Source of the DNA: an uncultured Elusimicrobiales bacterium
GTDB lineage: Bacteria > Elusimicrobiota > Elusimicrobia > Elusimicrobiales > Elusimicrobiaceae
DNA: 53,226 nucleotides
NCBI GenBank assembly: GCA_944324685.1
Contig: CALUXG010000018.1
Span: 1 to 53,226, forward strand
Direction of reading: 5' to 3'
Shown here: positions 32,819 to 49,784 of the stretch, in pieces
Position numbering within the stretch: position 1 is the first letter of the stretch
How the letters are laid out: each line of letters begins with the position of its first letter
The notes under the pieces: generated by a model
Told to the model about the DNA's origin: nothing
The model's input: the letters and a program-made list of their open reading frames with translations, nothing else
Database searches by the model: none
Translations under genes and position numbers: made by a program

Positions 32819-32856
32819 TTTTCCCTCGCTTTTTGCGTGCGAGGGAAAATCCTTTT
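32819..32856 (+). terminator. Probable terminator of the pilus operon
   Basis: An 11-bp stem TTTTCCCTCGC/GCGAGGGAAAA is followed by TCCTTTT. It lies 27 bases after the metallopeptidase stop and marks the left border of the phage cassette. Confidence 0.65.
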
Positions 32857-32973: not shown

Positions 32974-33002
32974 TTGACAAAAATGATAAAATTTGCTATA
33001 AT
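32974..33002 (+). promoter_or_regulatory. Consensus sigma-70 promoter of the phage packaging genes
   Basis: TTGACA (32974-32979), 17 bases, then TATAAT (32997-33002) match the full consensus, with TTTGC forming an extended -10. The expected start is near 33009, at the left edge of the palindrome at 33010. The upstream DNA is AT-rich, like an UP element. Confidence 0.88.
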
Positions 33003-33009
33003 ATAAAAG

Positions 33010-33038
33010 TACAAACAATCTTCTGTTTGTATTTTTTT
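33010..33038 (+). promoter_or_regulatory. Palindrome at +1: operator or early terminator
   Basis: TACAAACA (33010-33017), six bases, and TGTTTGTA (33024-33031) form a perfect inverted repeat starting at the predicted transcription start, followed by seven T. As DNA it looks like a repressor operator. As RNA it looks like an AU-rich terminator or attenuator. Confidence 0.6.
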
Positions 33039-33107: not shown

Positions 33108-33626
33108 TTGACTTCAAAATCTATACAGTCCGTCGGCGCGGATGTTTCTATGCCGGCGGAACAAACACCGTCCTCTGCCGTGAAACACGGTCGGCCGCGC
33201 AAAACGCCCACTAAAACGCGACGTCGCATAAAAAATACGGTTCCGTACCGGCCGGAATTTTGCGCGCGGCTTTTGGCCTTTTTTGACGTTCCTCCTTTCA
33301 AAATAACGGAGGTGCAAAAAAAAGACGGTTCTGTTTCTTTGGTGGAGACCGCTTCGGAGCTGCCCACTTTTGCCGCATTTGCGCGCATTTTGGGCGTTAC
33401 GCAAAGCACGCTGCTGGCTTGGGAAGAAGAACACGCCGAGTTTGCCGAAGCGGCCAAAAAAGCGCGTGATTTGCAGGGAGATATATTAATCCAAAACAGC
33501 TTGCGCGGCAATTATTCGTCTTCATTTGCCGTATTTACGGCCAAGAACATTTTGGGTTGGAGCGACGGAAAAGACGAAGTAAAAACCCCGCAAGCTCCTT
33601 TGGTGGTCCGTTGGGAGAAAGAATGA
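33108..33626 (+). CDS. Terminase small subunit
   Basis: This protein of about 172 residues would recognise phage DNA for packaging. The C-terminal half carries the motif FAAFARILGVTQSTLLAWEE, a helix-turn-helix, followed by EFAEAAKKARDLQGDILIQNSLRG and FTAKNILGWSD, the usual end of phage DNA-packaging small subunits. A basic AT-hook-like stretch GRPRKTPTKTRRR precedes it. The start is uncertain: TTG at 33108 has GGAG five bases upstream, and ATG at 33150 is the alternative. The longer open frame reaches above the promoter and cannot be translated from it. It overlaps the large subunit by four bases. Confidence 0.75.
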   Translation: MTSKSIQSVGADVSMPAEQTPSSAVKHGRPRKTPTKTRRRIKNTVPYRPEFCARLLAFFDVPPFKITEVQKKDGSVSLVETASELPTFAAFARILGVTQSTLLAWEEEHAEFAEAAKKARDLQGDILIQNSLRGNYSSSFAVFTAKNILGWSDGKDEVKTPQAPLVVRWEKE

Positions 33627-34933
33627 AACAATATTCCCGCACCGTCATTATTCCTTATAAACCGCGTTACCCGCAAAATGTGATTCATGAGGCTTTGCAG
33701 ACGCACCGTTTTTGCGTATTGGTCACCCACCGGCAGATGGGCAAAACCGTCTGTGCCGTAAATCATTTGCTCAAGCAGGCCTTACTTAACAAACGTCCTT
33801 CTCCACGTTATTTTTATATTGCGCCTTTTTTGAAGCAGACCAAATTGATCGCATGGGACTATGTAAAACGTTTTTGCAGTCCGCTGCCTGAGGTGAAACT
33901 TTCCGAAACGGAACTATGTGTGCGTTTGCCTAACGGAGCCAAAATATGGCTGCTGGGAGCTGATAATCCGGACGCTTTGCGCGGTACATATGCCGACGGC
34001 GTTGTTTTGGATGAATATGCGCAAATAAAACCGGATGTGTTTGATGAGATTGTGCGTCCTATGTTGCTTTCTCGCAATGGATGGGTTTTGTTTACAGGGA
34101 CGCCCAAAGGACAAAATCAATTTTATGAGCTGTATCAATATGCGCAAAAAGCGCAGGCGGGGGGAGACGGACAATGGTGGAGCGGCTTGTTCTCCGCCGA
34201 TGAAACGGGGGTAATTTCTCCCGACGAACTGGAAGAAATACGGCGCCGTACGCCCCAGCGTTTATTTAGACAGGAATATTTGTGTGATTTTACGGCAGAC
34301 GCCGAAGATGTGCTGATTGCCTCTTCGTTGGTTTCTGAAGCGTGTATGCGCCGCTACGGAGCTTCGGAGGTAGCGCATGCGCCTAGAATTATTGGCGTGG
34401 ATCCGGCGCGTTTTGGTGCGGACCGCAGCGTCATTTTTTGCCGACAGGGGCAGCAGGCTTTTGCGCCGTACGTATGGCATAAAATGGATAACATGTCCTT
34501 GGCTTCCCATACGGCGCGCACCATAGAATCTTTCCGTCCGGACGCAGTTTTTATAGACGCCGGCTGCGGCGGAGGAGTGATTGACCGTTTGCGGCAATTA
34601 GGTTTTCATGTAACGGAAATAAGTTTCGGCTCCTCCGCGATGAAAACGGCGCAATACGCCAATAAACGGGCGGAAATGTGGGGCGAGATGTTACTGTGGC
34701 TGCAAGCCGGCGGGGCCTTGCCGTCTTCGGGCGAACTAAAAGCGGATTTGTGCGGTGTGCGATATGGTTTTGACGCCGCGGGACGAATGAAATTGGAAAG
34801 TAAGGAAGAACTAAAAGCCCGTACGGGCCGAAGCCCTGATTTGGCGGATGCGTTGGCTTTGACGTTTGCAATGCCCGTACGCAGACATGCGGGCGGAGGC
34901 GAGTTCGGGCGTTCGGAATATGACGTACTATAA
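33623..34933 (+). CDS. terL: Terminase large subunit
   Basis: This 436-residue motor-nuclease packages DNA into the procapsid. A Walker A variant HRQMGKT lies at about 36-42, Walker B VVLDE at 127-131 and the coupling motif FTGTPKGQ near 155-162. The RNase H-like nuclease follows, with GVDPARFGADRS, FIDAGCGGGVIDRL and SPDLADALALTFA carrying the acidic residues. All key motifs are intact. The ATG overlaps the small-subunit stop and AGAAAG precedes it. Confidence 0.92.
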   Translation: MKQYSRTVIIPYKPRYPQNVIHEALQTHRFCVLVTHRQMGKTVCAVNHLLKQALLNKRPSPRYFYIAPFLKQTKLIAWDYVKRFCSPLPEVKLSETELCVRLPNGAKIWLLGADNPDALRGTYADGVVLDEYAQIKPDVFDEIVRPMLLSRNGWVLFTGTPKGQNQFYELYQYAQKAQAGGDGQWWSGLFSADETGVISPDELEEIRRRTPQRLFRQEYLCDFTADAEDVLIASSLVSEACMRRYGASEVAHAPRIIGVDPARFGADRSVIFCRQGQQAFAPYVWHKMDNMSLASHTARTIESFRPDAVFIDAGCGGGVIDRLRQLGFHVTEISFGSSAMKTAQYANKRAEMWGEMLLWLQAGGALPSSGELKADLCGVRYGFDAAGRMKLESKEELKARTGRSPDLADALALTFAMPVRRHAGGGEFGRSEYDVL

Positions 34934-35037
34934 GAAATTGGAACGGAATAAAAGTAAAAACGCTAACATGTTATATGCGAATTAAATAATAAATGAAATA
35001 TTTTTAGAAGAAAAAAATAAAATTGCTAACAAAAATA

Positions 35038-35066
35038 TTGACAAAACTAACAAAAAATGCTATAAT
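35038..35066 (+). promoter_or_regulatory. Second consensus sigma-70 promoter, upstream of the portal gene
   Basis: TTGACA (35038-35043), 17 bases, then TATAAT (35061-35066) match the full consensus. The -35 is flanked by two copies of CTAACAAAAA 21 bases apart (35026 and 35047). The palindrome TAACATGTTA lies at 34964-34973. The leader to the portal gene would be about 310 bases and would run antisense to the small gene at 35124. Confidence 0.85.
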
Positions 35067-35123
35067 TGCTTAAAAGCGGCTCCCAGAGGTCCCCTTAATC
35101 TTTTTCAAGTTGTTTATTTGTGT

Positions 35124-35297
35124 TTATACGCCCGTCATCAGCACGGCCAAAAGTCCTACAAACAGCAGTGTAACTCCCGCAGAAAGCCACCAAGCGTTTT
35201 TGCGGCTGCCGCCCTTAAATACTTTTCGCGTAATAATATAAAACCCCGGAAATCCCACCAGAACCGCAAATATCAAAATTAAAATCATACCGCCCAT
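35124..35297 (-). CDS. Small two-helix membrane protein, antisense within the phage cassette
   Basis: A 57-residue frame lies on the minus strand between terL and the portal gene, with an ideal AAGGAGG seven bases before its ATG. The product has two hydrophobic helices (about 3-22 and 38-56) joined by a basic loop RKVFKGGSRKN. It begins MGGMILILIFAVLVGFPG. It matches no family I know. As a lone oppositely directed gene it resembles a phage moron, for example a superinfection-exclusion or toxin-like membrane protein. The consensus promoter at 35038 would produce RNA antisense to it. Confidence 0.65.
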   Translation of the reverse strand: MGGMILILIFAVLVGFPGFYIITRKVFKGGSRKNAWWLSAGVTLLFVGLLAVLMTGV

Positions 35298-35381
35298 AAA
35301 TGGCCTCCTTAAAACCTTTTCTATATCCTAATAAATTTTGTTTTGAATGATAAGCCGTATATATAAACTAACAGGTGAGTT

Positions 35382-36950
35382 ATGAATACGATACAGAGTC
35401 AAAACGCGGGGTATTTTCTTACCCGTTATGAAGACATGAAAACCCAAGCGCAGAGTTGGCAGAGCGCATGGAAAGAGCTGGCGAAATATATAGCTCCTAC
35501 GCGCGGTTTTTTTGACGGAGACAAACCTTCCGACGGGCGCAAAATAGATCACCGTGCATTGATAGATTCAGACCCGTTGTTGGCGGTGGAAATTCTCAGC
35601 GCGGGCATGATGAGCGGCCTGACAAGCCCCAGCCGAAACTGGTTTGAATTGGCTCTGCCGCAGACTGAGCTGATGAAAGACGGTGCGGTGCGCGCATGGA
35701 CGCATGAAGTACGCCGGCGGATGGAAGAAGTGTTCTCTCGTTCCAATTTATACCATGTTCTGCACGGGTTTTATCAAGAAATTGCCGTGTTTGGTACGGC
35801 GGCGTTTTTATTGGAAGAAGATTTTGACCGCGTGATTTCCTGCCGTTTGTTTACAGCGGGGGAATATGTGTTGGACTGCGACGATAAAGGCAACGTAAAT
35901 TCTTTCGGACGGGAGTTCTGGATGACGCCCGTTCAAATGGCCGAAAAGTTTGGCAAAGAAAATCTGCCGTTGCAAATTCGGCGTGCGGCGGAAGAAAAGC
36001 GCGGCGGTTGGTTCAAAGTACTGCACGTCATCTTGCCCAACAAACAATATGATGAACGCAAAGCCGATTTTATGCATATGCCGTATGCGTCCGTCTATAT
36101 GAGTGCGCGCGGAGAAATTTTGCGTCGGTCGGGATACCGTGAATTTCCCGTTATAGCCGCGCGCTGGGAAGTGAAAAATTCTTCCGACATATATGGCCGA
36201 GGGCCGGGTTGGAAAGCTCTTGGTGATGTGAAAATGCTGCAAAAAATGCAAAAGAGCAAACTGGTGGCTTTGGATAAAAACACCAATCCTCCCATGCAGG
36301 TGTCGGCCAATGTGCAGGGCGAGGTGAATTTGCTGCCCGGGGGACTGACGCGCTACAGCGGCAGCGGCGGAGATGCCGCCGTCAAGCCGGCCTATCAGGT
36401 GCCTGTGGATTTGGCGGCTTTGGAAAACAGCATGGAACGCGTGAAACAAACCATTCGGGGACAGTTTTTTGCCGATGTGTTTTTAATGCTCAGTTCTCAG
36501 AATTTTACCCATATGACCGCGACGGAAGTGGCGGAGCGGCACCAAGAAAAAATGTTGGTGTTGGGGCCGGTGTTGGAACGCTTGAAAAATGAACTGTTGG
36601 ACCCTTTAATAGAGAGAACTTTTGCGCTCATGTACCGCCGAGGCGTCGTGCCTCTGCCCCCGCCGCAAATACAGGGCGGAGAGCTGAAAGTGCGTTATGT
36701 CTCCATGATTGCGCAAGCACAAAAACAGAGCGGTATGGCGGCTTTGCAGCAGGCGGTGGCTTTTGCAGGCAGTTTGGCGCAGGGAAATGCGGAAGTGTTG
36801 GATAAAGTGAATTTTGACGCCGCGTTGGAAGAAGGATTGGATATGCTGGGCGTGGCGCCCAATTTGATTCGTTCCGACCAAGAAGCCGCGCAAATACGTC
36901 TTAGACGCACACAATTGGCGGCGCAGTTGGCGCAGCCGTCTTCTAAATAA
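35382..36950 (+). CDS. Phage portal (head-tail connector), podovirus type
   Basis: This 522-residue protein would form the dodecameric portal through which DNA enters. Features of the podovirus head-tail connector family are W...WKELAKYIAPTRGFF near the start, ALIDSDPLLAVEILSAGMMSGLTSPSRNWFEL, and FFADVFLMLSSQNFTHMTATEVAERHQEKMLVLGPVLERL in the C-terminal third. The length is normal (about 500-550). AGGTGAG precedes the ATG. It is the first gene after the second phage promoter. Confidence 0.9.
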   Translation: MNTIQSQNAGYFLTRYEDMKTQAQSWQSAWKELAKYIAPTRGFFDGDKPSDGRKIDHRALIDSDPLLAVEILSAGMMSGLTSPSRNWFELALPQTELMKDGAVRAWTHEVRRRMEEVFSRSNLYHVLHGFYQEIAVFGTAAFLLEEDFDRVISCRLFTAGEYVLDCDDKGNVNSFGREFWMTPVQMAEKFGKENLPLQIRRAAEEKRGGWFKVLHVILPNKQYDERKADFMHMPYASVYMSARGEILRRSGYREFPVIAARWEVKNSSDIYGRGPGWKALGDVKMLQKMQKSKLVALDKNTNPPMQVSANVQGEVNLLPGGLTRYSGSGGDAAVKPAYQVPVDLAALENSMERVKQTIRGQFFADVFLMLSSQNFTHMTATEVAERHQEKMLVLGPVLERLKNELLDPLIERTFALMYRRGVVPLPPPQIQGGELKVRYVSMIAQAQKQSGMAALQQAVAFAGSLAQGNAEVLDKVNFDAALEEGLDMLGVAPNLIRSDQEAAQIRLRRTQLAAQLAQPSSK

Positions 36951-37025
36951 CGGACGGCAGCGCCGGACAGGCTTATTCAAAGCGTGATGCGGGAGAGTCT
37001 AAAATTAACGTACGCCCGCACGCGT

Positions 37026-37056
37026 CGGGGGAAGACGCTCCGGACGTTTTCCCCCG
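37026..37056 (+). other. Strong hairpin before the Bbp19-like gene
   Basis: The arms CGGGGGAAGACG and CGTTTTCCCCCG form a 12-bp stem with one G-T pair around a seven-base loop. No T run follows. It lies in the 126-base gap after the portal gene and may be an RNA processing or stability element. Confidence 0.5.
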
Positions 37057-37076
37057 TAAAAACGGAGAAAAATTTT

Positions 37077-37385
37077 ATGGGAAAAAGAAATTTGGAAAAG
37101 AGACATGAGGCCGATTTGGCTGCCATACTCAAACTGCCGCAGGGGCGCAGGCTTTTGTGGCGGCTACTGCAGGCGACGCAAGTGGACGGACACGGCTTTG
37201 TGCCCGCCGATCCGTATGCGACGGCTTTTCATTGCGGGCAGCGAAGCATAGGGGTTTTTTTGAAAGAACAAATTATGCAAATTTCGCCGTTTGTCTTGGC
37301 GCAGATGAGGGCGGAATATGTATCGGAACTGACGTCGCAGCAGAACGAAATCAACAGAGAAAGCGAGGAAATGCACAATGTCTGA
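37077..37385 (+). CDS. Bbp19-like phage protein
   Basis: This 102-residue protein contains LPQGRRLLWRLLQATQVDGHGF, then FHCGQRSIGVFLKEQI. That pattern is known from the small Bbp19 family that sits between portal and capsid genes in Bordetella phage BPP-1 and relatives. Its exact role is unknown. It is highly charged and helical. The start at 37077 was taken because CGGAG lies ten bases upstream. It overlaps the scaffold gene by eight bases. Confidence 0.7.
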   Translation: MGKRNLEKRHEADLAAILKLPQGRRLLWRLLQATQVDGHGFVPADPYATAFHCGQRSIGVFLKEQIMQISPFVLAQMRAEYVSELTSQQNEINRESEEMHNV

Positions 37386-37965
37386 ATCTTTACAAGAGAC
37401 GCCGCAAACGGCGCAGACGGATTTTAGGGCTGAAGAATTAAACGGCCGGCCCAGCGGGGCGGACGCAACCGCCGACGATAGGCCAAAGAATGAAAAAGAA
37501 GCGGCTTTGCCCGATGGGCCGTATGCGGATATTCAACTGCCGCCAAACTTACGGGGGCAGGAAGAAGCTTTTGCCGAATTTAAGAAGCTGGCCACTTCTT
37601 TGCAGCTGTCTGGCGAAGCGGTAAAACAACTGGTACAGTGGGAAGCTCAAACCGCAGACGGCGGCCGCCGCCGCGCTCAGGACGGACGCACGCAAATTTT
37701 AGAACGCTGGAAAAAAGAAACGCGGGACATGTTTGGTCCCGCTTATGAGCGGGAATTGGCGCGTGCGTTGGGGGCGGTGCAGCGTTTTGGCGGAGAGGAA
37801 CTGAGGGCGCTGTTAGACGCTACGGGATTGGGGAATCATCCTGTGTTGGTAAAGACGTTTCATGAAATCAGCAAACAAATCGGAGAAGATCAATCCGTAT
37901 CGGGGCAAATACGCGCTTCGGCGGACAAAACCTTTTCCGAAGCGTTGTATGGAAAAGCGCAATAA
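37378..37965 (+). CDS. Probable capsid scaffolding protein
   Basis: This 195-residue acidic protein has a disordered N-terminus, a helical middle (FAEFKKLATSLQLSGEAVKQLVQW) and a conserved-looking C-terminal region. That region, with MFGPAYERELARALGAVQRFGG followed by LLDATGLGNHPVLVKTFHEI, is typical of phage proteins encoded just before the major capsid gene. It would shape the procapsid and leave before DNA filling. Function rests on composition and position. GAGGA precedes the ATG. Confidence 0.68.
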   Translation: MSESLQETPQTAQTDFRAEELNGRPSGADATADDRPKNEKEAALPDGPYADIQLPPNLRGQEEAFAEFKKLATSLQLSGEAVKQLVQWEAQTADGGRRRAQDGRTQILERWKKETRDMFGPAYERELARALGAVQRFGGEELRALLDATGLGNHPVLVKTFHEISKQIGEDQSVSGQIRASADKTFSEALYGKAQ

Positions 37966-38001
37966 ACGCTTTTCCAATAAACAAAAATAAAGAGGAGCTT
38001 T

Positions 38002-38979
38002 ATGGCAATTATTGCAGACAAATATTACAACTTGTTGGACTACGCCAAACAATTTGACGAGTCCGGACAAGAGCTGGCTATAGCCGAAGTGTTAAGCAAA
38101 TCCAATGACATCATCGGTGATGCTATGGTCGTGGAAAGCAATCTGGATAGCGGCCACGAATATGCCGTGCGCACGGGTATCCCCGAGGGAACGTGGCGCC
38201 GTGCTTATCAGGGTATAGAACCGGCTAAAGCAACTACAAAAGTGGTGGTGGAAAGTTACGGCACCTTATCGGCTTACAGCGTGGTGGACAAGCTGATTGC
38301 GGAAAAAGGAGGCAATTTGCAGGCAGTGCGTACCGGACAGAGCAAAGCCATTATTGCGGGTATGTCCAACACCATGGCGCGCAATTTGATTTACGGCAAT
38401 GCCGGAGAGACGCCGGAACGTTTTACGGGATTGGCCGCGCGTTACAATACGCTGAGCGAAGCGGAAAGCGCCCGAAACGTTATAGACGCCGGAGGAGAAA
38501 CCGACGGCCAGAATTCTTCCATTTATCTGGTGGTATGGGATACGGACAAAGTGTTTACTTTTTTCCCAAAAGGTTCCAAAGCTGGCATACAACGCGTGGA
38601 TCACGGGTTGGTCAACCATACGGACGCCGATGGCAATGAATATCCGGCTTATAAAGAATATTTTGAATGGAAGCTGGGTTTGGCTGTGCAGGATTGGCGC
38701 TATGCGGGACGCATTTGCAATATTGACGTAAAAAATGTTCCAGCCGGCCTCATTGACCATATGTGTGAACTGGAAGAACGCATCCAAAGCCTAAATCTGG
38801 GCAAACCGTTCTGGTATATGAACCGCACCGTCAAAGCCGCTTTGCGCAAACTGACCAGCAATAAACAAAACGTCCAATATACGCCGGATCAGGTAACGTC
38901 TCGCCCGTTAATGACGTTTAATGAAATTCCCGTGCATATTTGTGACGCGATTACGGATACGGAAGACGTCGTGTCTTAA
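38002..38979 (+). CDS. Major capsid protein, Bbp17-like (HK97 fold)
   Basis: This 325-residue capsid protein resembles the BPP-1 Bbp17 family. The N-terminus has LLDYAKQFDESGQELAIAEVLSKSNDII. A middle segment VVESYGTLSAYSVVDKLIAEKGGN follows. The C-terminal part LGLAVQDWRYAGRICNIDVKN resembles the axial domain of HK97-fold capsids. No N-terminal delta domain is present, consistent with a separate scaffold gene upstream. GAGGAG precedes the ATG. A hairpin and the cement gene follow. Confidence 0.88.
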   Translation: MAIIADKYYNLLDYAKQFDESGQELAIAEVLSKSNDIIGDAMVVESNLDSGHEYAVRTGIPEGTWRRAYQGIEPAKATTKVVVESYGTLSAYSVVDKLIAEKGGNLQAVRTGQSKAIIAGMSNTMARNLIYGNAGETPERFTGLAARYNTLSEAESARNVIDAGGETDGQNSSIYLVVWDTDKVFTFFPKGSKAGIQRVDHGLVNHTDADGNEYPAYKEYFEWKLGLAVQDWRYAGRICNIDVKNVPAGLIDHMCELEERIQSLNLGKPFWYMNRTVKAALRKLTSNKQNVQYTPDQVTSRPLMTFNEIPVHICDAITDTEDVVS

Positions 38980-39008
38980 TATGTCTGAAATCGCCTAAGA
39001 CGGGATAT

Positions 39009-39037
39009 AACGGGGTCTGAAGAAGGCAGACCCCGTT
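39009..39037 (+). other. Hairpin between capsid and cement genes
   Basis: An 11-bp perfect stem, AACGGGGTCTG/CAGACCCCGTT, with a seven-base loop and no T tail. Such an element can set the ratio of capsid to cement transcripts. Confidence 0.55.
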
Positions 39038-39073
39038 TAGGAAGCAGTATTCCTGTGAAAAGAAGGAGAAAAT

Positions 39074-39448
39074 ATGTTAATAGATTCTACATTGATGCTG
39101 TCGGATAAACAAAGCGTAACGGTTTCCGCCGCGTCAGAATACATAATTGATCAAACGGCGGCGGGTGATGCGCGCCATGCTACAGTGGTGGCGCTGGCCG
39201 ACGAAGAGTTTGCCGGTTTGAGCGGACTGAAAATCAGTTTGCAAACCTCCGATGATGATACATTTGCCTCCAGTGAGGAATTGGCATCGGTATCTTTTGG
39301 TTTGGAGGATTTGAAAACGGGCCGCGCATTGTTGAAAATGCCTTTGCCCAGCGGAACCTTGCGTTATATCCGCGGATATTATACGGTAACCGGTACGGCT
39401 TCGGCGGGGAAAATCTCATTGTTTATTACGGATGAGGCCGGCCGGTAA
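39074..39448 (+). CDS. Bbp16-like capsid cement protein
   Basis: This 124-residue beta-rich protein follows the capsid gene directly. The start MLIDSTLMLSDKQSVT and the end YTVTGTASAGKISLFITDE fit the Bbp16 family, a capsid-stabilising cement protein in BPP-1. Gene order capsid then cement is the same as in that phage. GGAG lies before the ATG. A terminator follows the stop. Confidence 0.75.
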   Translation: MLIDSTLMLSDKQSVTVSAASEYIIDQTAAGDARHATVVALADEEFAGLSGLKISLQTSDDDTFASSEELASVSFGLEDLKTGRALLKMPLPSGTLRYIRGYYTVTGTASAGKISLFITDEAGR

Positions 39449-39455
39449 AATACAG

Positions 39456-39486
39456 TGGGGCGCGTAATAATGCCGCGCCCCATTTT
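39456..39486 (+). terminator. Terminator after the cement gene
   Basis: The nine-bp stem TGGGGCGCG/CGCGCCCCA is followed by TTTT on the plus strand. It ends the head gene block. Confidence 0.75.
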
Positions 39487-39489
39487 CCA

Positions 39490-40086
39490 AAACGATTTTT
39501 TGGAAAGCATCATCTCCCAAAACAGTTTTTTGCCATATTTAGATATAATGCGTTTTTCCAAAACATTCTTTTTGCCAAGTCTTTCCCACGCAGCTTTCTT
39601 GTTTGCTTTTGGGGCTTTTTATTTTATTTTTCTGTAAATAAACCCTTAGGGACAAGAGAAAAAGCGCTGTAAAGGCCAAAAATGGCGAAAAATAGACTAA
39701 AAAAGCTTCAAAGAGTCTGAAAAAGTTGAAAAAACGCACTGTTTCTATCAAAACATCTTTATTTTTTTCTTAAGAAAGAGGTAATTCTGCTGCCTAACAA
39801 AAGAATGATTTGATAACTTTTCAGCACTAAAAAACTAAATATATCTTTTGATAAAAAAATACATGTAATTTTGAAAATCATTAAAATTTAATAATTTTCA
39901 AATTTAATATTGAATTTTGATGTTGTGAAAAGTGGCGATTTTGTGTTTTTTGTATTTATTAAAAACATATTTAATTTTATAAATATATAAAAAATAATAA
40001 TTAATAAAAATAGAAATGATTTTTTGATTTTATGTTAAATATGAAAAAACTTTATTTTTTAATATAAATTAAAATTGGAGATTAAA
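39490..40086. other. 600-base AT-rich non-coding island in the phage cassette
   Basis: No open frame here has a credible start or ribosome binding site. Base composition falls sharply, and the last 250 bases are almost only A and T. A 31-bp near-perfect palindrome lies at 39871-39901, with arms TTGAAAAT and ATTTTCAA and one mismatched pair. It may be a regulatory region for the tail genes, a replication or packaging site, or the scar of a lost gene. Confidence 0.6.
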
Positions 40087-40674
40087 ATGTCATTAAAAAT
40101 TGATATTTGTAATATGGCTTTTGCTCATTTAGGGTTAGAGTCCATTTCTTCACTAACGCAAGATGATGAACGCACCAGACGCTGTCTGTTATTTTATGAA
40201 CCGGTCAAAAAAGAGTTGCTGCGTACACATAATTGGGGTTTTGCCAATGTCATGGAACCCTTGACTTTATTGGCAGCTGCAGATGAACCGGAAAAACCTT
40301 ATATGTATGCTTATCCGGCAGATTGTCTCTTTTTGCGCCGTATTTTTGGCGATTCCGCCGGCCAAAAAAATGTTTCTTTTCGGGAGGTTTTTCGGCCGGA
40401 TTTGCATGCTCGGGTTATTTTTTGTGCGCTGCCGCAGGCACAGGTTGAATATACTCGGGACATAAAAGACGAAAATTTGTTTGACAGCGCCTTTGTCTAT
40501 GCTTTTTCATTGGCTTTGGCGGCGGATTTGGCGCTTACGCTGACGGGAGACCGTGCGCTTGCCCAACAAATATGGCAGAAGTATACGCTGGCCCTGCAGG
40601 AAGCCCGCCGCAGCAATATGAGCGAGCGCTTTGACGTTCAAAACGCCGCCGGCGCTTTTGTGGAGGTGCGCTGA
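40087..40674 (+). CDS. Tail tubular protein A-like (head-tail adaptor)
   Basis: This 195-residue protein begins MSLKIDICNMAFAHLGLESI and continues with TRRCLLFYEPVKKELLRTHNWGFA, the pattern of podovirus tail tubular protein A (T7 gp11-like). That protein forms the ring below the portal. A later segment YTRDIKDENLFDSAFVYAFSLALAADLA also fits. The ATG was chosen because GGAG lies seven bases upstream. It ends two bases before the next gene. Confidence 0.82.
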   Translation: MSLKIDICNMAFAHLGLESISSLTQDDERTRRCLLFYEPVKKELLRTHNWGFANVMEPLTLLAAADEPEKPYMYAYPADCLFLRRIFGDSAGQKNVSFREVFRPDLHARVIFCALPQAQVEYTRDIKDENLFDSAFVYAFSLALAADLALTLTGDRALAQQIWQKYTLALQEARRSNMSERFDVQNAAGAFVEVR

Positions 40675-40675
40675 T

Positions 40676-43279
40676 ATGCCCCAACATATGATACAAACCA
40701 ATTTTGCCGGCGGAGAGATCAGTCCGCAGCTTTACAGCCGCGCCGCAGGCGCCGGAGAGGGTTTTTTGAAGACCGCCCGTAATTTTTTGATACATCCGCA
40801 GGGGTGTGTTTCCAACCGTTCCGGCACGGCATACGTACACAGCGCCAAATATGCAGACAAAGCCTGCCGTTTGATTCCTTTTGTGCTTAGCGAAGAAGAA
40901 GCCTATGTGTTAGAGGTGGGGCATGAGTATATACGCGTACACACACAAGCGGGGACGCTGCTTGATGGCGACGGAGATGACTATGAATTGGCGTCGCCTT
41001 ATCAGGAAATAGAATTGGCGGTTTTGAATTATGTGCAGTATGACCAAACGCTTTTTTTGGTGCATCCGAATCATTGTCCGAAAAAATTATTCCGCGGTAA
41101 CGACGGTTATTTTACTTTGCAGGACATGACGATAAAAGACGGCCCGTTCATGTTGGCCAATACGGATGAAAATAGAAAAATACGTTTGGTGGCGCAAAGC
41201 GGAACGGTGGTTTCGGAAGGAGTCAAAGCCGTATTGTCATTTTTACCGGTTAGTTATCCGAATTATTTTATTCAGGTCTTTTGGCAGGGGCAGATGTTTT
41301 TTATGGCTATGGAATACGGTTTTAATGTCGCCGACGTAGTCAATGCTTTTAACAATACTTACGCCGCCTCCGGATGCAAAGCCTACAATCAGGGAGGGGT
41401 ACTTCGTATAGAATCGCCGCAAAGCAGCGGCGGCGATTATAACGGCGCACAGCTGACCATTTATTATTGTTCGGGCGTCGTCACGCCGCCTCAGCTGGTG
41501 GTAACGCAGCAGATGAGCGGCGGCTGTAACGCCGGAGAGAGCGTCAGTCAAGGCGAAACGAAATATTATTTGGAATCAAACGTTGATTTATTTCAGCCCG
41601 GGCAAGTGGGCGCGCTGTTTGCTTTGCGCCAACGCGTGGAAAGCCCTTATGAAAGCGGTACCTTGGGATATGAAGACATTTCCAAGGTCATAAAAACGGG
41701 AGGAGACTGGACTTTGCGCACAACGGGCAGCTGGTATGGCGATATTGTTTTAGAATCTTCGGAAGACAACAATGTCTGGGAGAAAGTAAAACATTTCAGC
41801 AAAGCCCAAGACGAGGAAAATTTTAATACGGTGGGCAGTTTGGCTTTGTCAGCCAAAATGCATTATTTGCGCATACGCTGTTTGGGCATATCCGGAGAAA
41901 TGGGATATGTGCTTCAGGCGGAATCTTTTCATCAGGAAGGCATTGTGAAATTGTCCAGTTATGTCAGCGCTGATAAAGTGCAAGTAACTTTACAGCGGCA
42001 CGCCGCGTTGTTGGACGAATGGACGGATGATTGGTCGGAGGGTTCGTTCAGTCCGCAGGCGGGGTATCCGCGCTGTGTTTTTTTCTATCAGGATCGGCTG
42101 GGGTTTGCCGGTACGAAAAAAGAACCGCAAACCGTTTGGTTTTCTAAGACGGGCGAGCATGAGGATTTCGGCTATTCCCGCACATTGGAAGATTCCGACG
42201 CGCTGAGCATTAATCTTTCAGGAAAAAAATTAAACGCCATTCATTCCGTAGCCGTCGGCGCGCGCTTGTTGCTTTTTACCGCCGGCAGCGAGTGGAGTCT
42301 GGGCTGCAGCGGCGCTTTGACCCCTTATAATATGGACATACATCAAGAAGGAGAGCGCGGCGCCAGCCCCGTCCCTCCCATTGTGGCGGGCAACCGCACG
42401 CTGTATGTGCAGGCGCGCGGCGGAGTATTGAGGGATTTTTTCTACCAATATACCAGTGCTTCATATACGGGGCGGGATTTAACGTTGCGCGCGCGCCATT
42501 TGTTTTTTAATCGGGAAATTAAAGAAATGGCTTATCAGCAGGAACCGGATAATTTAATCTGGTGTGTCATGAATGACGGCAGTTTATTGTCTTTGACCTA
42601 TTTGGCGGAGGAGGAAGTTTTTGCGTGGGCGCAACATCAAACGCAAGGGCAGTTCGTCAGCGTATGCAGCATACCGGCGCAGGGCAGCGACGAAACGTGG
42701 TTTGTCGTAAAGCGGGGGGAAAAATATTTTATAGAACGTTTGCTGCCGCGCTTGACCAGCCGTGTACCCGAAGATCAAATTTTTTTGGATTGCAGTATTT
42801 CCAAAAAAAATACGCAGGCTTTCAGCGAAGTGGAAGGACTGGCGCATTTAGAGGGCAGGGAAGTCGGCGTGCTGGCTGACGGAAGTCCTTTAGGAGCTTT
42901 GACGGTAACCAACGGCAAAATTATTTTGCCCTCCGCCGTACATACAGCCCATGTAGGCCTGCCTTATGAAGCCGTTTTGCAAACCCTTCCGCCGGATATG
43001 GCGTTCTCAGACGGAACGGCGCAAGACCGTTTGCGCCGGCCTGTGCAAGTCATGCTGAAATTGATGGACAGCCGCGGCGGAGCCGTAGGAGTCGGAGAGG
43101 GAAAACTGGAAGGGCTGGTTAATATTCCCGCTCAAAATTATGGAGAAGCCGCCTCTTTGCAAACGGGCGATTTTATCAAACAATTGTCTTCTTCTTACAG
43201 TTATTTCCCGTCTATAACATTTGTTCAGCAAGAACCGCTGCCCGTAACGTTGCTGGCGGTAATTTCCCGCTTTTGCTGA
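40676..43279 (+). CDS. Tail tubular protein B-like (tail nozzle)
   Basis: This 867-residue tail protein begins with NFAGGEISPQLYSRAAGAGEG and NFLIHPQGCVSNRSGTAYV, the signature of large podovirus tail nozzle proteins (T7 gp12-like). The rest is beta-rich, with QDRLGFAGTKKEPQTVWFSKTG and EEVFAWAQHQTQGQF as typical later motifs. GGAGG precedes the ATG. It follows the gp11-like gene directly, matching the usual order. Confidence 0.85.
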   Translation: MPQHMIQTNFAGGEISPQLYSRAAGAGEGFLKTARNFLIHPQGCVSNRSGTAYVHSAKYADKACRLIPFVLSEEEAYVLEVGHEYIRVHTQAGTLLDGDGDDYELASPYQEIELAVLNYVQYDQTLFLVHPNHCPKKLFRGNDGYFTLQDMTIKDGPFMLANTDENRKIRLVAQSGTVVSEGVKAVLSFLPVSYPNYFIQVFWQGQMFFMAMEYGFNVADVVNAFNNTYAASGCKAYNQGGVLRIESPQSSGGDYNGAQLTIYYCSGVVTPPQLVVTQQMSGGCNAGESVSQGETKYYLESNVDLFQPGQVGALFALRQRVESPYESGTLGYEDISKVIKTGGDWTLRTTGSWYGDIVLESSEDNNVWEKVKHFSKAQDEENFNTVGSLALSAKMHYLRIRCLGISGEMGYVLQAESFHQEGIVKLSSYVSADKVQVTLQRHAALLDEWTDDWSEGSFSPQAGYPRCVFFYQDRLGFAGTKKEPQTVWFSKTGEHEDFGYSRTLEDSDALSINLSGKKLNAIHSVAVGARLLLFTAGSEWSLGCSGALTPYNMDIHQEGERGASPVPPIVAGNRTLYVQARGGVLRDFFYQYTSASYTGRDLTLRARHLFFNREIKEMAYQQEPDNLIWCVMNDGSLLSLTYLAEEEVFAWAQHQTQGQFVSVCSIPAQGSDETWFVVKRGEKYFIERLLPRLTSRVPEDQIFLDCSISKKNTQAFSEVEGLAHLEGREVGVLADGSPLGALTVTNGKIILPSAVHTAHVGLPYEAVLQTLPPDMAFSDGTAQDRLRRPVQVMLKLMDSRGGAVGVGEGKLEGLVNIPAQNYGEAASLQTGDFIKQLSSSYSYFPSITFVQQEPLPVTLLAVISRFC

Positions 43280-43308
43280 CAAAACGCGCCCGAATATATC
43301 AGGCGCGT
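43279..43308 (-). terminator. Terminator of the minus-strand membrane protein gene
   Basis: The stem ACGCGCC/GGCGCGT is followed by TTTTG on the minus strand, about 20 bases after the stop at 43328. It gives the inserted gene its own transcription unit. Confidence 0.65.
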
Positions 43309-43327
43309 GAAGAGAAAATACGAATTG

Positions 43328-44125
43328 TCAAAATGCGGGAGAACCCATCGCTTCCGCCGGAAAGGCGGGAGAAGGCTGCCAACTCTGGGCGTTAAAACGG
43401 AAACTGCGAAGCGTTTGTTCCGTTTGTTGGCCGTTGTGTTGTCCGTAAAAACCCAGTAACGCGTAGAGCACATTGTTATTCTTGGCCAGCAACAGCTTAA
43501 AAGACATCTCCGCACCGGAAGAAGATGACAAAACGCCGTCCATAATGGCCGCCGAAGCATTTGTCCCCGCATAAATTTCTTCAGGCTCTTCTATGGAGAT
43601 TTGCCCGTTAAATTGCGCTTGCTGGGCTTGTCTGATAACGGTATGGGCTATTTCCATAGCGTCAGACGGATTATTGGGCAATTGCACGCGCGCCAGTAGA
43701 TAAGCGGAAAAAGGATTTTCTTCTTGCGGCGCCGTATTCAAAAAGAAGTTTGTGTCCACGCCCACCAACAAAGAAGGTCCGCCGTCCGGCAGGTCAATCC
43801 AGTCGCTTAGCACCGTACCGTCATAAAGCGTCAAGCCGAAGCCGAAGCGTTGGTCCTTGTATGCGTGCGGACCGTATACGGGTTGCTGTTGCGTTTGTAT
43901 GGTTTCAACAATGGGAGTCAGCGGAAGCAAATATTTGTTTACCGTACTGTACACGGCCCATACCATGGCGATAATCGTCAGCAGCGTAGCGGCGCCGGCC
44001 AAAATCAAAGGCCAGAAATTGCGTTGTTTGCTGCACAGCACCCAAATCAGCTTAAAAAGCAAAAAGAAAATGCCGTATAAAATAGCCGCAGCCAGCAGAG
44101 CTAATACAAACAAAAAAATCAACAT
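43328..44125 (-). CDS. Membrane-anchored protein of unknown function (moron-like)
   Basis: This 265-residue protein has two N-terminal membrane helices (about 1-23 and 35-58) and a soluble C-terminal domain (about 70-265). The domain has a repeated pattern of beta strands and YGPHAYKDQRFGFGLTLYDG near its start. I recognise no family. It lies opposite to all surrounding tail genes and has an ideal AGGAGG before its ATG and its own terminator. These are features of a moron expressed from the integrated element, for example for host protection or surface change. The start is 32 codons inside the longest frame. Confidence 0.75.
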   Translation of the reverse strand: MLIFLFVLALLAAAILYGIFFLLFKLIWVLCSKQRNFWPLILAGAATLLTIIAMVWAVYSTVNKYLLPLTPIVETIQTQQQPVYGPHAYKDQRFGFGLTLYDGTVLSDWIDLPDGGPSLLVGVDTNFFLNTAPQEENPFSAYLLARVQLPNNPSDAMEIAHTVIRQAQQAQFNGQISIEEPEEIYAGTNASAAIMDGVLSSSSGAEMSFKLLLAKNNNVLYALLGFYGQHNGQQTEQTLRSFRFNAQSWQPSPAFPAEAMGSPAF

Positions 44126-44146
44126 ACAGCCTCCTGATAAGAAAAT

Positions 44147-44638
44147 ATGAAACACGCCTTTTATCATGATATTAGTTTGGAGCCCCTTTGTAAAGCGCAT
44201 CTGGACGATTTGGCCGTGCATTTGCGCCGAGAGGACAAGGCGGAGTTGTGGGCGGCATATCGGCTGCCCGTGAGGCAGGCTTTGCAGGATTGCGCCCGAA
44301 AGTCAGCGGCGGCGTTTGCGTTGGTGCGGCGGGGACGGACCATGGCTGCGGCGGGGGTGGAAGCGCAAAGTTTGCTGGGGCGTCGGGCTTGTGTATGGTC
44401 TTGGACGGGGAGGGACGTTCTTTTTTGTCCAAAGCTTTTTTGGCGTTTTTCATGTATTGTCCGGGATTATTTTTTGTCTTTGTATCCGCAGTTATATGCG
44501 GCGTGCGATGTGCGCTATGCGGCGGCGCAGAGATATTTGCGGCGTTTGGGAGCTTGTGCAACAAAAGAAAAAATTTATTTGGCGGGAAAAGAAACCCGCT
44601 TTGTGCTGTATGTGTTTGAACGCCCGAAAGAGGCGTAA
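44147..44638 (+). CDS. Small phage virion protein, possibly GNAT-fold (T7 gp13-like)
   Basis: This 163-residue basic protein follows the tail nozzle block. Its pattern HLRREDKAELWAAY, a central MAAAGVEAQSLLGRRACVWSW, and a C-terminal YLRRLGACATKEKIYL resembles the DUF2833/GNAT-like proteins found at the gp13 position of T7-type phages. The likeness is weak. The ribosome binding site is poor, and the start lies 21 bases from the divergent membrane protein start. Confidence 0.55.
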   Translation: MKHAFYHDISLEPLCKAHLDDLAVHLRREDKAELWAAYRLPVRQALQDCARKSAAAFALVRRGRTMAAAGVEAQSLLGRRACVWSWTGRDVLFCPKLFWRFSCIVRDYFLSLYPQLYAACDVRYAAAQRYLRRLGACATKEKIYLAGKETRFVLYVFERPKEA

Positions 44639-44660
44639 CTTTTAGGTCAAGGAGAAAAAT

Positions 44661-45173
44661 ATGGGAGGAGCCCTAGGAGGCGTATTATTTACGGGAGGAA
44701 CGGTTCTGTCCACGGCGGCGGAACTTTTGGGGCAGGATGCGGCGGAGGAGGAATATTATCAATCTATGGCCGCCGCTGCCGAAACGCAGGCGCGGCTGAC
44801 GCAGGAAAACGCCGCGCGCAATGCGCGCTATATTGTGGAAGACGCCGCTTATCAAAATAATGAACTGCTGCGTGATTATTCTTCTTTATTGGGCCGGCAA
44901 AAAACGGCGCTGGCGGCCAGCGGGCTTACGTCTGCTTCTGCCACGGCGCAGATGATTTTGAAAAACAGTCGGTTGAATGCGCTTTTAGATCAGGAAATGC
45001 TTAATGAAAATCTGGAGCGCGAAATCTATGAAAATAATTTCACCGCCAATGTAAAAATGGAACAGCAGTATACGCAGGCGCAGCAATATCGTCGTGCGGA
45101 AAAGCTGAGACCTAGCTGGTGGTCTAAAATGGGCGGAGTTTTGGGCGGATTATTTTCTGGCAGAGGCTATTGA
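44661..45173 (+). CDS. Internal virion protein-like (gp14 position)
   Basis: This 170-residue protein begins with a glycine-rich hydrophobic stretch GGALGGVLFTGGTVLSTAAELLG. A long Ala/Gln/Glu-rich helix with RQKTALAASGLTSASATAQMIL follows. The tail is glycine-rich and ends SKMGGVLGGLFSGRGY. This fits podovirus internal core proteins that are ejected into the envelope. AAGGAG lies before the ATG. Assignment rests on composition and position. Confidence 0.65.
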   Translation: MGGALGGVLFTGGTVLSTAAELLGQDAAEEEYYQSMAAAAETQARLTQENAARNARYIVEDAAYQNNELLRDYSSLLGRQKTALAASGLTSASATAQMILKNSRLNALLDQEMLNENLEREIYENNFTANVKMEQQYTQAQQYRRAEKLRPSWWSKMGGVLGGLFSGRGY

Positions 45174-45182
45174 GGGGGGAAA

Positions 45183-46718
45183 ATGAAAATACCCGTTTAC
45201 CGTCGTTCTATTTCTTATCGCCGCGCGCATGCGGCGGATATGTCTCCGGCTCCTGTGCTGGAAGATGCTATGGGGGAAGAAAAGTTTTCGCAATGGCAGA
45301 ACGCGGCCGGCGCTTTGCTGGGGTTATATGAATTGCCTGCCGCATTAAACCGAACGGTGCAGGCCTATAAAGGCGCCGCCCAGCGGTGGGAAACAGAATG
45401 GAAAGAGGCGGCATCTTTGATTAACGCCAAGGAGAAGCCGAAAGAAAGAGAGGAAACTTTGGAAGACTCCAACGCGGCAGAGAAAAAGGAGGGGGAGAAA
45501 AATTTTTCTTCTTCTCGGCGTATGCTTCAGCTGAATTTTGCGCGTGCGGAAGCGTTTGAACCGCAGACGTCCGGAGGCGGGAACGCAAACGATCCCGTTC
45601 GGCGTTTGGACGAACATTTTGCCAAGTATATGACTCGCTATGGGCAGAATAATGATTTATTGGCACAGGACTATGTCATTTTGCGTCGGGAATTAGGCGT
45701 TTTGCAAGAGAAAGAGAAGCAAAATCAGGCGCAGGAAATGCTGAAACAGGGCGCGGGGACATTTGTACAAACCGCCGCCATGGTCCGTACTCCGTCGGCT
45801 TTGGAGGCGTATATGCGCGACAATTTGGCCGCCGCTTCGCGGGAAGCCCGTGCGGCGGGTTGGAACGGTAAACAAATACGCGGCCGAATGAAAACGCTGA
45901 GAGCGCAGGCGGTGCGGCACAATGTGCAAGCGGCTTTGCAAAGCGGAGAAATGCGTCAAGCGGAAACAATATACCGGCATTTTTCTTCGTTTTTATCCGA
46001 AGAAGACCAAGCATTGCTTCGGAGAAAACTGACCGCGCGCAAGGCGGATTTGGCGGCGGCGGAGCTTTGGCCGCAGGCGCATGCAATGACCGCCGGCGCC
46101 ATGGAGGAGGACGAAGAAAAATTGCGTCTTTTCTCCAACAATGCCGCGGCCGGAGAAGATGCGGAGTTTGCGGAAGATTTGCATCAGGCTTTGAAAGCTC
46201 GGGCGAGGCAGGCTTCCCTGCGGCATTTGCGCCGCCGAGCACAGGCTTATCAAACATTGGCCTCGATGGATGCAAATGCGGATTTGACAAGCGTTTTACG
46301 GGAGGATTGTTTTGATAAAGATGAGTTTGAACAGAATCAAAAAGTTTTACGCGCATGTCAAATCCGCCGCGGCGGACGTTCGGTCCGCGGCGTATTTAAC
46401 CGTTTGCAGCGGCAATTAATGGACGGAAAACTGCAAGAGGAAGATTTGAGGAAATCTTTCGGAGCGGGGGAATTGTCCGCCCGAGATTATTGGTTGTTGC
46501 AAGGTCGCCGCTTTTCTCTGCAAGCCGGAGACAGCGCGTCTCAAGACCGTTTGCTTGCAGCCGCTTTAAGCAAGTTCTGCCGCCAAAACGGATTAGACGA
46601 GGAGCAAAGCGACGAAGTAATGTACTTTGTGTTTGCGCAGGGAAGCAATCCGTCGGAACAATTGGCCGCGGCACAAACGGTAAAACAAATATTTCTTTTA
46701 CAGGAGAAAAATCAATGA
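45183..46718 (+). CDS. Large internal virion protein-like (gp15 position)
   Basis: This 511-residue, highly helical and charged protein follows the gp14-position gene. Segments such as LDEHFAKYMTRYGQNNDLLAQDYVIL and NVQAALQSGEMRQAETIYRHFSSFLSEED are long amphipathic helices. There is no lytic transglycosylase motif, so it does not supply the missing muralytic activity in an obvious way. A GAGGGGGG tract precedes the ATG. It overlaps the fiber gene by four bases. Confidence 0.6.
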   Translation: MKIPVYRRSISYRRAHAADMSPAPVLEDAMGEEKFSQWQNAAGALLGLYELPAALNRTVQAYKGAAQRWETEWKEAASLINAKEKPKEREETLEDSNAAEKKEGEKNFSSSRRMLQLNFARAEAFEPQTSGGGNANDPVRRLDEHFAKYMTRYGQNNDLLAQDYVILRRELGVLQEKEKQNQAQEMLKQGAGTFVQTAAMVRTPSALEAYMRDNLAAASREARAAGWNGKQIRGRMKTLRAQAVRHNVQAALQSGEMRQAETIYRHFSSFLSEEDQALLRRKLTARKADLAAAELWPQAHAMTAGAMEEDEEKLRLFSNNAAAGEDAEFAEDLHQALKARARQASLRHLRRRAQAYQTLASMDANADLTSVLREDCFDKDEFEQNQKVLRACQIRRGGRSVRGVFNRLQRQLMDGKLQEEDLRKSFGAGELSARDYWLLQGRRFSLQAGDSASQDRLLAAALSKFCRQNGLDEEQSDEVMYFVFAQGSNPSEQLAAAQTVKQIFLLQEKNQ

Positions 46719-49012: not shown

Positions 49013-49214
49013 AATGCTGTGGAAAGTGGCGGCCATTGTGTTTGCCGCGGGCGGTGTGTGGAATGAACTGCGCGCCATACGCAAAGACATTGCGCGACTG
49101 GAAGCCAAGCAGGACAAATACAACAATTTGCAAGTGCGCGTGGCGAAACTAGAGGACAGCGTGAGCAGTGCGCACAAGCGCATCAGTGAATTGCATTTTG
49201 GCCGTCATATCTGA
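48993..49214 (+). CDS. Small membrane protein with coiled coil, holin-associated
   Basis: This 73-residue protein has one N-terminal membrane helix (about 8-26) and a coiled coil with RKDIARLEAKQDKYNNLQVRV. The shape matches XhlA-like or other holin partner proteins at the start of phage lysis cassettes. GGAGG precedes the ATG, which lies 20 bases inside the fiber gene. Function is inferred. Confidence 0.65.
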   Translation: MTAETFEMLWKVAAIVFAAGGVWNELRAIRKDIARLEAKQDKYNNLQVRVAKLEDSVSSAHKRISELHFGRHI

Positions 49215-49274
49215 AGTTTGTTCTATGCGTATATATTAGCTGTAAATGAAATATTCATATAACAGGAGGAAATC

Positions 49275-49466
49275 ATGTTTGAATGGTTACAAAATAATTG
49301 GAACGATGTATTGGCCATTATCGGAGGTGCGGTGCTGATTGTATCCACGATTGTCAAATTGACGGCGACGGATAAAGACGACACGGTGTGGGCCAAGGTG
49401 CTGAAAGTGCTTTCTGCGCTGTCTTTGGTCAATCCCGATGGTTCCGTGGCGGGCAAAGGCAGATGA
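49275..49466 (+). CDS. Holin-like small membrane protein
   Basis: This 63-residue protein has one strong membrane helix (about 12-30, VLAIIGGAVLIVSTIVKL). The short tail KDDTVWAKVLKVLSALSLVNPDGS recalls small phage holins encoded near fibers. An ideal AGGAGG lies upstream. Its stop overlaps the i-spanin start by four bases. Confidence 0.65.
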   Translation: MFEWLQNNWNDVLAIIGGAVLIVSTIVKLTATDKDDTVWAKVLKVLSALSLVNPDGSVAGKGR

Positions 49467-49675
49467 CGGCGCGTCTTGTCTGTCTCTGTGCGGCATGCGG
49501 CATGCTGTGTGCGTTTGGCGCGGTGTTATACCGCGCCGGACGCCAAAGCGCTGAAAACAAGGCCCGCCGCGGCAAGGAAAAAGAGTATGAACAAACGGAT
49601 AAAATTATTCGCGCTGTGTCTGTTATGGGCCGCGGGGAGCTGCTTAAGCGGCTGCGCGGCGGCGGTAAAAAGTAA
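49463..49675 (+). CDS. i-spanin-like (Rz-like) protein
   Basis: This 70-residue protein has an N-terminal membrane helix (about 3-25) and a charged periplasmic tail with NKARRGKEKEYEQTDKII. It matches a short inner-membrane spanin. Its 3' half contains the o-spanin gene in the +1 frame, the arrangement typical of Rz/Rz1. The start was set at the ATGA overlap with the holin gene. Confidence 0.65.
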   Translation: MTARLVCLCAACGMLCAFGAVLYRAGRQSAENKARRGKEKEYEQTDKIIRAVSVMGRGELLKRLRGGGKK

Positions 49676-49784
49676 CGCCGCCGTATGCCGCATCACGTTT
49701 GATTACAGCGACGATAACTTGGAGCGGTTAAATACGCAAAACTTGCGCGCTTTGGTCAGTTTTAAGCAAATATGCGGCGGATAA
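49587..49784 (+). CDS. o-spanin-like (Rz1-like) lipoprotein
   Basis: This 65-residue lipoprotein has a signal sequence and lipobox LSGC with Cys23. The mature part is short and polar. It starts inside the i-spanin gene in another frame and extends 109 bases past its stop. AAGGA lies nine bases before the ATG. With the i-spanin it would join inner and outer membranes at lysis. Confidence 0.75.
   Translation: MNKRIKLFALCLLWAAGSCLSGCAAAVKSNAAVCRITFDYSDDNLERLNTQNLRALVSFKQICGG

Follow-up and report, generated by a model that had tools for sequence, protein, structure and literature searches.

A conserved hairpin at the predicted start site of the packaging genes in a gene-transfer-agent-like cassette of Elusimicrobiaceae

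Described systems and the elusimicrobial locus

The late promoters of the lambdoid phages lambda, 21 and 82 combine a promoter-proximal terminator with Q antitermination. In the ompA and T7 gene 10 leaders, stem-loops at the 5' end have a stabilising effect. The gene transfer agent (GTA) cluster of Caulobacter is controlled by a repressor of the regulator operon and by anti-termination (PMC11150451).

In this study, the window, that is, the whole stretch of 53,226 nucleotides from an uncultured Elusimicrobiales bacterium, was analysed around a consensus promoter (P1) that is directly followed by a palindrome and a T run. This feature is real and conserved. It lies where transcription of the packaging genes is predicted to begin, in a GTA-like cassette that looks domesticated, and attenuation is favoured over an operator as its putative function.

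With the GTA of Caulobacter crescentus (CcGTA; RogA, GafY, GafZ; PMC11150451), the locus has in common a cluster of structural genes of phage origin and comparable length (14 kb in CcGTA), a regulator operon under a dedicated repressor, and one or more terminators, here putative, in the transcription unit of the cluster. Anti-termination was shown for CcGTA, whereas it is proposed for P1. In CcGTA, the terminator lies behind the first gene and is formed by three GC-rich repeats of 150 bp, whereas P1 has an AU-rich hairpin of about 22 nt at +1, and the CcGTA promoter has a degenerate -35 and depends on activators (PMC11150451), whereas P1 is a full consensus. For CcGTA, the same paper also describes a putative GafZ element, located between the -35 and the -10; between the -35 and -10 of P1, inspection by eye for a conserved motif that could be a Q or GafZ loading site gave nothing beyond TG(C/A).

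P1 resembles the lambdoid late promoters in its strong promoter, its putative early terminator and the late virion genes behind it, and differs in that no Q homologue or pause element was identified. We know of no lambdoid case in which the terminator is as close to the promoter as the P1 hairpin at +1. The ompA and T7 gene 10 leaders are similar in that their mRNA opens with a hairpin at its very 5' end, and to our knowledge those stems are without a conserved run of six to eight T at the foot.

The cassette derives from a podovirus of the BPP-1/BcepC6B type, and its portal, Bbp16, capsid and tail families are those of the Bordetella phage BPP-1 and the Burkholderia phage BcepC6B. It differs from these phages in that its capsid protein is about 41% identical to the best phages among the matches listed (the nearest viral-contig large terminase is 55% identical), and no integrase, replication or repressor gene was found among the ORFs searched from 33.1 to 49.8 kb, several small ORFs of which had no family.

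The start-site element and the cassette behind it

On the forward strand, P1 (32974-33002) consists of TTGACA at 32974-32979, a 17-nt spacer ending in TGC (extended -10) and TATAAT at 32997-33002. After seven bases, the palindrome TACAAACA-ATCTTC-TGTTTGTA occupies 33010-33031 and is followed by seven T at 33032-33038; the transcription start is predicted at 33009 from the distance to the -10. The sequence-only reading had already described this promoter, palindrome and T run, and all of its positions were exact when the sequence was read again. It had also suggested that the genome be searched for the 22-bp palindrome, and in the 1.40 Mb of the own genome the perfect copy was unique, with one further copy at two mismatches that has no T run in the matched stretch. 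In the window, the palindrome pattern with up to three mismatches occurred once, against 0.17 expected in shuffled sequences. Perfect TTGACA-N17/18-TATAAT promoters are just four in the own genome, two of them being P1 and a second promoter, P2 (35038-35066, forward strand), which was found by promoter pattern search.

A repeat search extended the inverted repeat to 33005-33036 at 92%. The RNA folded from the predicted +1 had a dG of -7.8 kcal/mol (z -4.0), which was equalled by 1 of 200 shuffles for the P1 stem, and the bare stem had a dG of -6.5. A simple terminator scan that required at least three G-C pairs in the stem did not list the hairpin, because its stem has fewer than three. An Rfam search of the whole window at the gathering threshold returned three tRNAs and no other RNA family, and the hairpin was accordingly rejected as a riboswitch or known RNA family. 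It was also rejected as a bidirectional terminator or a terminator of the upstream gene: the peptidase gene upstream has its own inverted repeat at 32819-32849 (forward strand; 11-nt arms, 100% complementary, dG -17.3), likely its terminator, and the A run on the left of the palindrome is not conserved. The repeat at 32819-32849 likely insulates P1 from upstream transcription.

The following cassette genes are on the forward strand. P1 heads the small terminase subunit (33108-33626; phrog_3064, E 3e-19; PF16677), whose start codon is uncertain (33084, 33108 or 33150), and the large subunit, TerL (33623-34933; phrog_2, E 1e-51). P2 heads the portal or head-tail connector (35382-36950; phrog_332, E 1e-149; PF12236), a scaffold/protease-like protein (37378-37965; phrog_458), the major capsid protein (38002-38979; phrog_212), a Bbp16-like virion protein (39074-39448; PF21190, E 2.8e-17), two tail proteins (40090-40674 and 40673-43279; phrog_394 and phrog_376), two internal virion proteins (44147-44638 and 44661-45173; phrog_308, and phrog_418 with T7_gp14) and the tail fibre protein (46706-49012; phrog_5302, phrog_1640), reaching to about 49 kb. 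Because P2 stands before the genes from the portal onward, the hairpin would gate the terminase pair and not the whole cassette, and the earlier description of the element as a master switch of the cassette was too strong. The host genes on the same contig are pseudopilin-like proteins and the peptidase upstream, and a pilin-like protein, an O-antigen-ligase-like protein (both labelled by eye) and tRNA-Thr downstream.

Some smaller ORFs were also observed. A membrane-protein-like gene on the reverse strand (43328-44221) lies inside the cassette and is retained in many relatives, with no match in Pfam or PHROGs. Opposite the P2 leader, a small possible membrane-protein ORF lies at about 35124-35297 (reverse strand), and its DNA is conserved in the clade of the window; the query for it was translated one base out of frame, with a stop replaced by X, and the matches therefore speak for the DNA and not for a protein. 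Short ORFs past the fibre gene (48993-49784) have the look of a lysis cassette, with weak holin/XhlA-like matches and a spanin-like ORF by eye, which would fit particle release.

The genus examined was Candidatus Avelusimicrobium of the Elusimicrobiaceae, as judged by named relatives. Of 37 genus genomes, 33 contain TerL, and none of 24 genomes from a second family of this order does; under a stricter limit, TerL was detected in 24 of 27 genomes that were additional or repeated. The capsid was present in 57 of 61 genus genomes, 56 times at full length (85-100% identity) and once as a contig-end fragment, with internal stops in none. An RpoB family search matched in 18 of 30 genomes, and in the 17 genomes with all three genes the identities were 83-97% for RpoB, 62-89% for TerL and 83-99% for the capsid. 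Mantel correlations of the RpoB distances were 0.89 with TerL and 0.88 with the capsid, and none of 5000 permutations was as high. The cassette (33108-49466) is therefore genus-wide, and it is mostly single-copy. In 8 of 29 main loci of relatives the cassette is preceded by the same host peptidase gene, with different flanks in others, and in several relatives the two terminase genes are kilobases apart from the portal. Separate and more divergent prophage-like loci, distinct from the conserved cassette, were seen in L062, L063, L064, L066 and L067 (TerL 26-59% identical, capsid 36-64% where found).

From these comparisons, the cassette looks to be kept by the genus, inherited vertically and domesticated. 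It is most likely a GTA-like element: structural and packaging genes occur without integrase or replication genes among the ORFs searched, and the 17-genome correlations agree with vertical inheritance and long-term purifying selection. In the literature searched, as judged by titles among the matches listed, no GTA has been described in Elusimicrobiota, and the cassette, if it is one, would be a GTA-like element in a phylum without a described GTA.

The hairpin across relatives and its possible functions

A total of 54 TerL loci (30 and 24) were examined, of which two (L009 and L219) end too early to judge. P1 with the hairpin and T run precedes the terminase genes in 43 of the 52 testable loci. 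One of the 43, L212 (genome G061), has a C followed by five T, fell outside the first filter and was counted on sequence reading. The element is missing in nine genomes (G003, G009, G017, G026, G027, G036, G063, G078 and G082). In a second collection, all 13 Elusimicrobiales loci with upstream sequence carry P1 and the hairpin, several of these being the same assemblies as above. Conservation of the palindrome in related loci, on which the sequence-only reading had staked its proposal, was thus borne out. L098, L124 and L135 were excluded because their upstream sequence was too short. Among 45 phage or other-host loci, a loose filter of at most three promoter mismatches let three through, two of them identical in sequence, and none was like P1; P1 was accordingly rejected as a general late-phage feature.

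The stem was analysed in 39 of the 43 leaders, after removal of four near-duplicates. Of the 234 cells of the six core pairs, 233 are paired, and the stem is paired in 93% of cells versus 28-51% when the partner was slid. The core sequence TACAAA...TTTGTA hardly varies, and the flanking pairs, outer and inner, co-vary across leaders. Pair 0 (TA, AT, GT) was formed in 33 of 39 leaders (shuffled mean 18.2; 0 of 2000 shuffles as high), pair -1 in 32 of 39 (23.8; 1 of 2000), pair 7 in 25 of 39 (18.4; 11 of 2000), pair 8 in 34 of 39 (17.2; 0 of 2000) and pair 9 in 20 of 36 (13.6; 10 of 2000), and these shuffle counts are not probabilities because the leader rows are related. Pair -2 had no covariation support and was at the shuffled level (22 of 39). 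Taken together, the start-site element has very probably been selected as an RNA hairpin.

In 42 of the 43 loci, six or more T lie within 2 nt of the stem, whereas shuffling of the following 40 nt would give 2.9 such loci, and a terminator score after d'Aubenton-Carafa was positive in 35 of 39 leaders. The stem-loop and the U run of an intrinsic terminator are therefore present. A G+C-rich stem base and a strong folding energy are not, since the base of the stem is AU-rich and dG was -5.0 to -15.6 over the 39 leaders (-6.5 to -7.8 in the window). The element is termed terminator-like rather than a classical terminator because the lower stem is AU-rich, the fold is weak and the terminator scan gave no match.

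We lean slightly towards the view that the hairpin with its U run would act as a terminator or attenuator. In this mechanism, P1 would initiate often at about 33009, the first 24 nt or so would fold into the hairpin, and the U run at about +24 to +30 would make it an intrinsic terminator or a strong early attenuator. A very strong promoter would then give mostly aborted transcripts of about 30 nt, and terminase would be produced only once something lets RNA polymerase past the hairpin. Because the hairpin is at +1, an alternative antiterminator fold could not form ahead of it, and release would need a trans-acting factor on the early RNA, the promoter or the polymerase. For the model in full, comprising a dedicated terminase promoter, a palindrome and T7 read as RNA, early attenuation and factor-dependent release, we regard the case for and against as about evenly balanced. 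Several observations count against an attenuator: a terminator does not require the position at +1, which would suit a 5' stabiliser just as well, the weak AU-rich stem is unlike classical terminators, P1 is missing from nine genomes, all of one clade, and the ~100-aa candidate for an antiterminator, described below, has a distribution that does not match that of P1. The leader is short enough for a reporter to probe the gate directly.

The main rival, which we consider possible but clearly less probable, is a 5' stabilising hairpin, in which the stem would shield the terminase mRNA from decay that depends on the 5' end, and the T run would be incidental or ribosome-friendly. The hairpin begins 6-13 nt past the -10 in the 43 P1-bearing loci, so that the stem starts a few nt from the predicted +1 in all of them, and the covariation reflects selection at the RNA level, both of which such a stabiliser would show. 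However, stabilising would not need the T run (six or more) at the foot of the stem, which occurs far above the shuffled expectation and is a mark of terminators.

A DNA operator, in which a dimeric repressor or activator would bind the palindrome at +1, appears improbable. The near-invariant core would suit it, as would the position at +1 for a repressor. However, a dimeric DNA-binding protein needs a fixed half-site spacing and an RNA hairpin does not, and TACAAA and TTTGTA are 7, 8, 9, 10, 11, 12, 13, 14 or 15 nt apart depending on the species, while the distance to the -10 also varies between species. Because the spacing drifts while the stem is kept, a dimer operator is disfavoured and an RNA hairpin is favoured. 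In addition, the genome has no second perfect site, and the repressor of the cassette has another likely operator. Of the earlier alternatives of operator or attenuator, it is thus the attenuator that is favoured, since the stem and T run are kept through these changes.

A tiny RNA gene, in which P1 and the terminator would yield a functional RNA of about 30 nt and terminase would arise by read-through, is very improbable; promoter, hairpin and T run do make a complete small transcription unit, but the sequence of the loop and upper stem is not conserved. A covariance model of the leaders, run over 46 sources, gave 34 rows, namely 23 P1 leaders, 10 opposite strands of the same palindromes and one weak match (L062, E 0.74), and so no convincing second copy of the hairpin. 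A functionless relic of a phage late promoter fits the descent of the cassette from a BPP-1/BcepC6B-type phage, but is the least credible reading of all, since 43 of 52 genomes keep the element although their RpoB identity falls to about 83% and the cassette has been rearranged, and the hairpin was not seen in the related phages.

The unlinked repressor and the P0 module

In relatives, a gene for an XRE-plus-S24 repressor lies a few kilobases upstream of the terminase genes and is divergent from a promoter, P0. The sequence-only reading had noted that no repressor gene is present in the window; none was found there, and in the own genome the cassette-conserved repressor sits on another contig (C30:106884-107570), with P0 at 106800-106829. 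Relatives of the repressor are present in 58 of 61 genus genomes. Its XRE DNA-binding domain is recognised from an N-terminus that is nearly invariant in the six aligned proteins and from HTH_3, for which the own copy is below the Pfam cut-off. The sequence-only reading had suggested a genome search for a repressor that binds the palindrome; a repressor was found, but its likely operator is CTAACA at P0 and P2, not the palindrome.

P0 is near-invariant in most of 57 genomes, as TTGACAAA(C/T)(G/A)CTAACAA(A/T)ACTTACTATACTAACA, and departs from this most in the clade with an intact S24 domain and in G029. The pattern TTGACA-N2-5-CTAACA-N6-10-TATA(A/C)T has exactly two sites in the whole own genome, P0 and P2. 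A motif search placed CTAACA at 35026-35031 and 35047-35052 (forward strand), around the -35 of P2, as the proposed operator of the unlinked repressor. P2 keeps CTAACA or CTTACA in the clade of the window; the P2 promoters of the other large clade have an 18-bp spacer and are without CTAACA, and direct repression of P2 is therefore not general. P1 has no CTAACA, and its palindrome is unlike this motif. Since P1 is a perfect consensus without CTAACA, another off-switch is expected there. Judging from these motifs, CTAACA is likely the operator of the repressor, which would probably control P0 and P2, with the terminase promoter gated by the hairpin.

The catalytic Ser (GDSM) and Lys of S24 were present in 9 of 57 repressors and absent in that of the own genome and 47 others; the own repressor, whose S24 domain is degenerate, is thus without the residues of an autocleaving S24 protein of the LexA/CI type. 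The nine repressors with both residues belong to exactly the nine genomes without P1, and the Ser is lost in all 42 P1-bearing genomes in which the repressor was found (in G035, P1 is present and the repressor was not found). The nine P1-less genomes form one nested clade in the TerL tree (100/98), and in the repressor tree a branch of weak support (85/58) separates them from the others. Because they are nested in the TerL tree, P1 and the hairpin are likely older than the loss there, and because they form one clade, the association between P1 loss and an intact S24 domain counts as one evolutionary contrast. This pattern suggests that where the repressor can no longer be cleaved by itself, the packaging genes may have a gated promoter of their own. 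In the one clade that has lost the gate, the repressor is intact and autocleavable, and this coincidence hints at how a prophage switch is rewired in domestication.

The other conserved product of this regulatory module is a protein of about 100 aa encoded downstream of P0, which is present in 54 of 61 genus genomes. Searches of Pfam, PHROGs, NCBIfam and PDB sequences gave no relative of note, with weak single rows only. The protein is kept in the clade without P1; in the two genomes of this clade whose upstream region was listed (L055 and L061), the terminase genes follow its gene with no P1 between. It was not detected in the P1-bearing genomes G028 (95% complete), G035 and G083, in two of which (G028 and G083) the ORFs after P0 were checked within 1-1.5 kb. 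This distribution, with the protein present where P1 is missing and apparently absent from three genomes that have P1, speaks against a dedicated role, and we consider it rather unlikely that this P0 product is the releasing factor.

We can imagine a still broader scheme, which we regard as doubtful in its entirety. In it, the cassette would be a functional, vertically inherited GTA in which a start-site terminator of about 30 nt gates nothing but the packaging motor, a new family of small antiterminators would come from the unlinked module (repressor, P0 and the ~100-aa protein), and a repressor without autocleavage residues would directly control the virion operon. If the attenuation model above is right, the control logic would parallel that of the Caulobacter GTA with other parts, namely a separate repressor locus and an anti-termination gate on the packaging genes.

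Between P0 and the gene of the ~100-aa protein, the own genome (C30:92000-110071, locus L071) has a 13-nt inverted repeat with GTTAGC/GCTAAC and a strong GC-rich hairpin without a T run; the repeat is possibly a further repressor site and the hairpin possibly a second attenuator. In the same interval, some relatives have a DcuC-family transporter gene (L053, 1491-2882; L056, 2210-3598, PF03606; L061, 2284-3678; coordinates with each locus oriented as its terminase genes).
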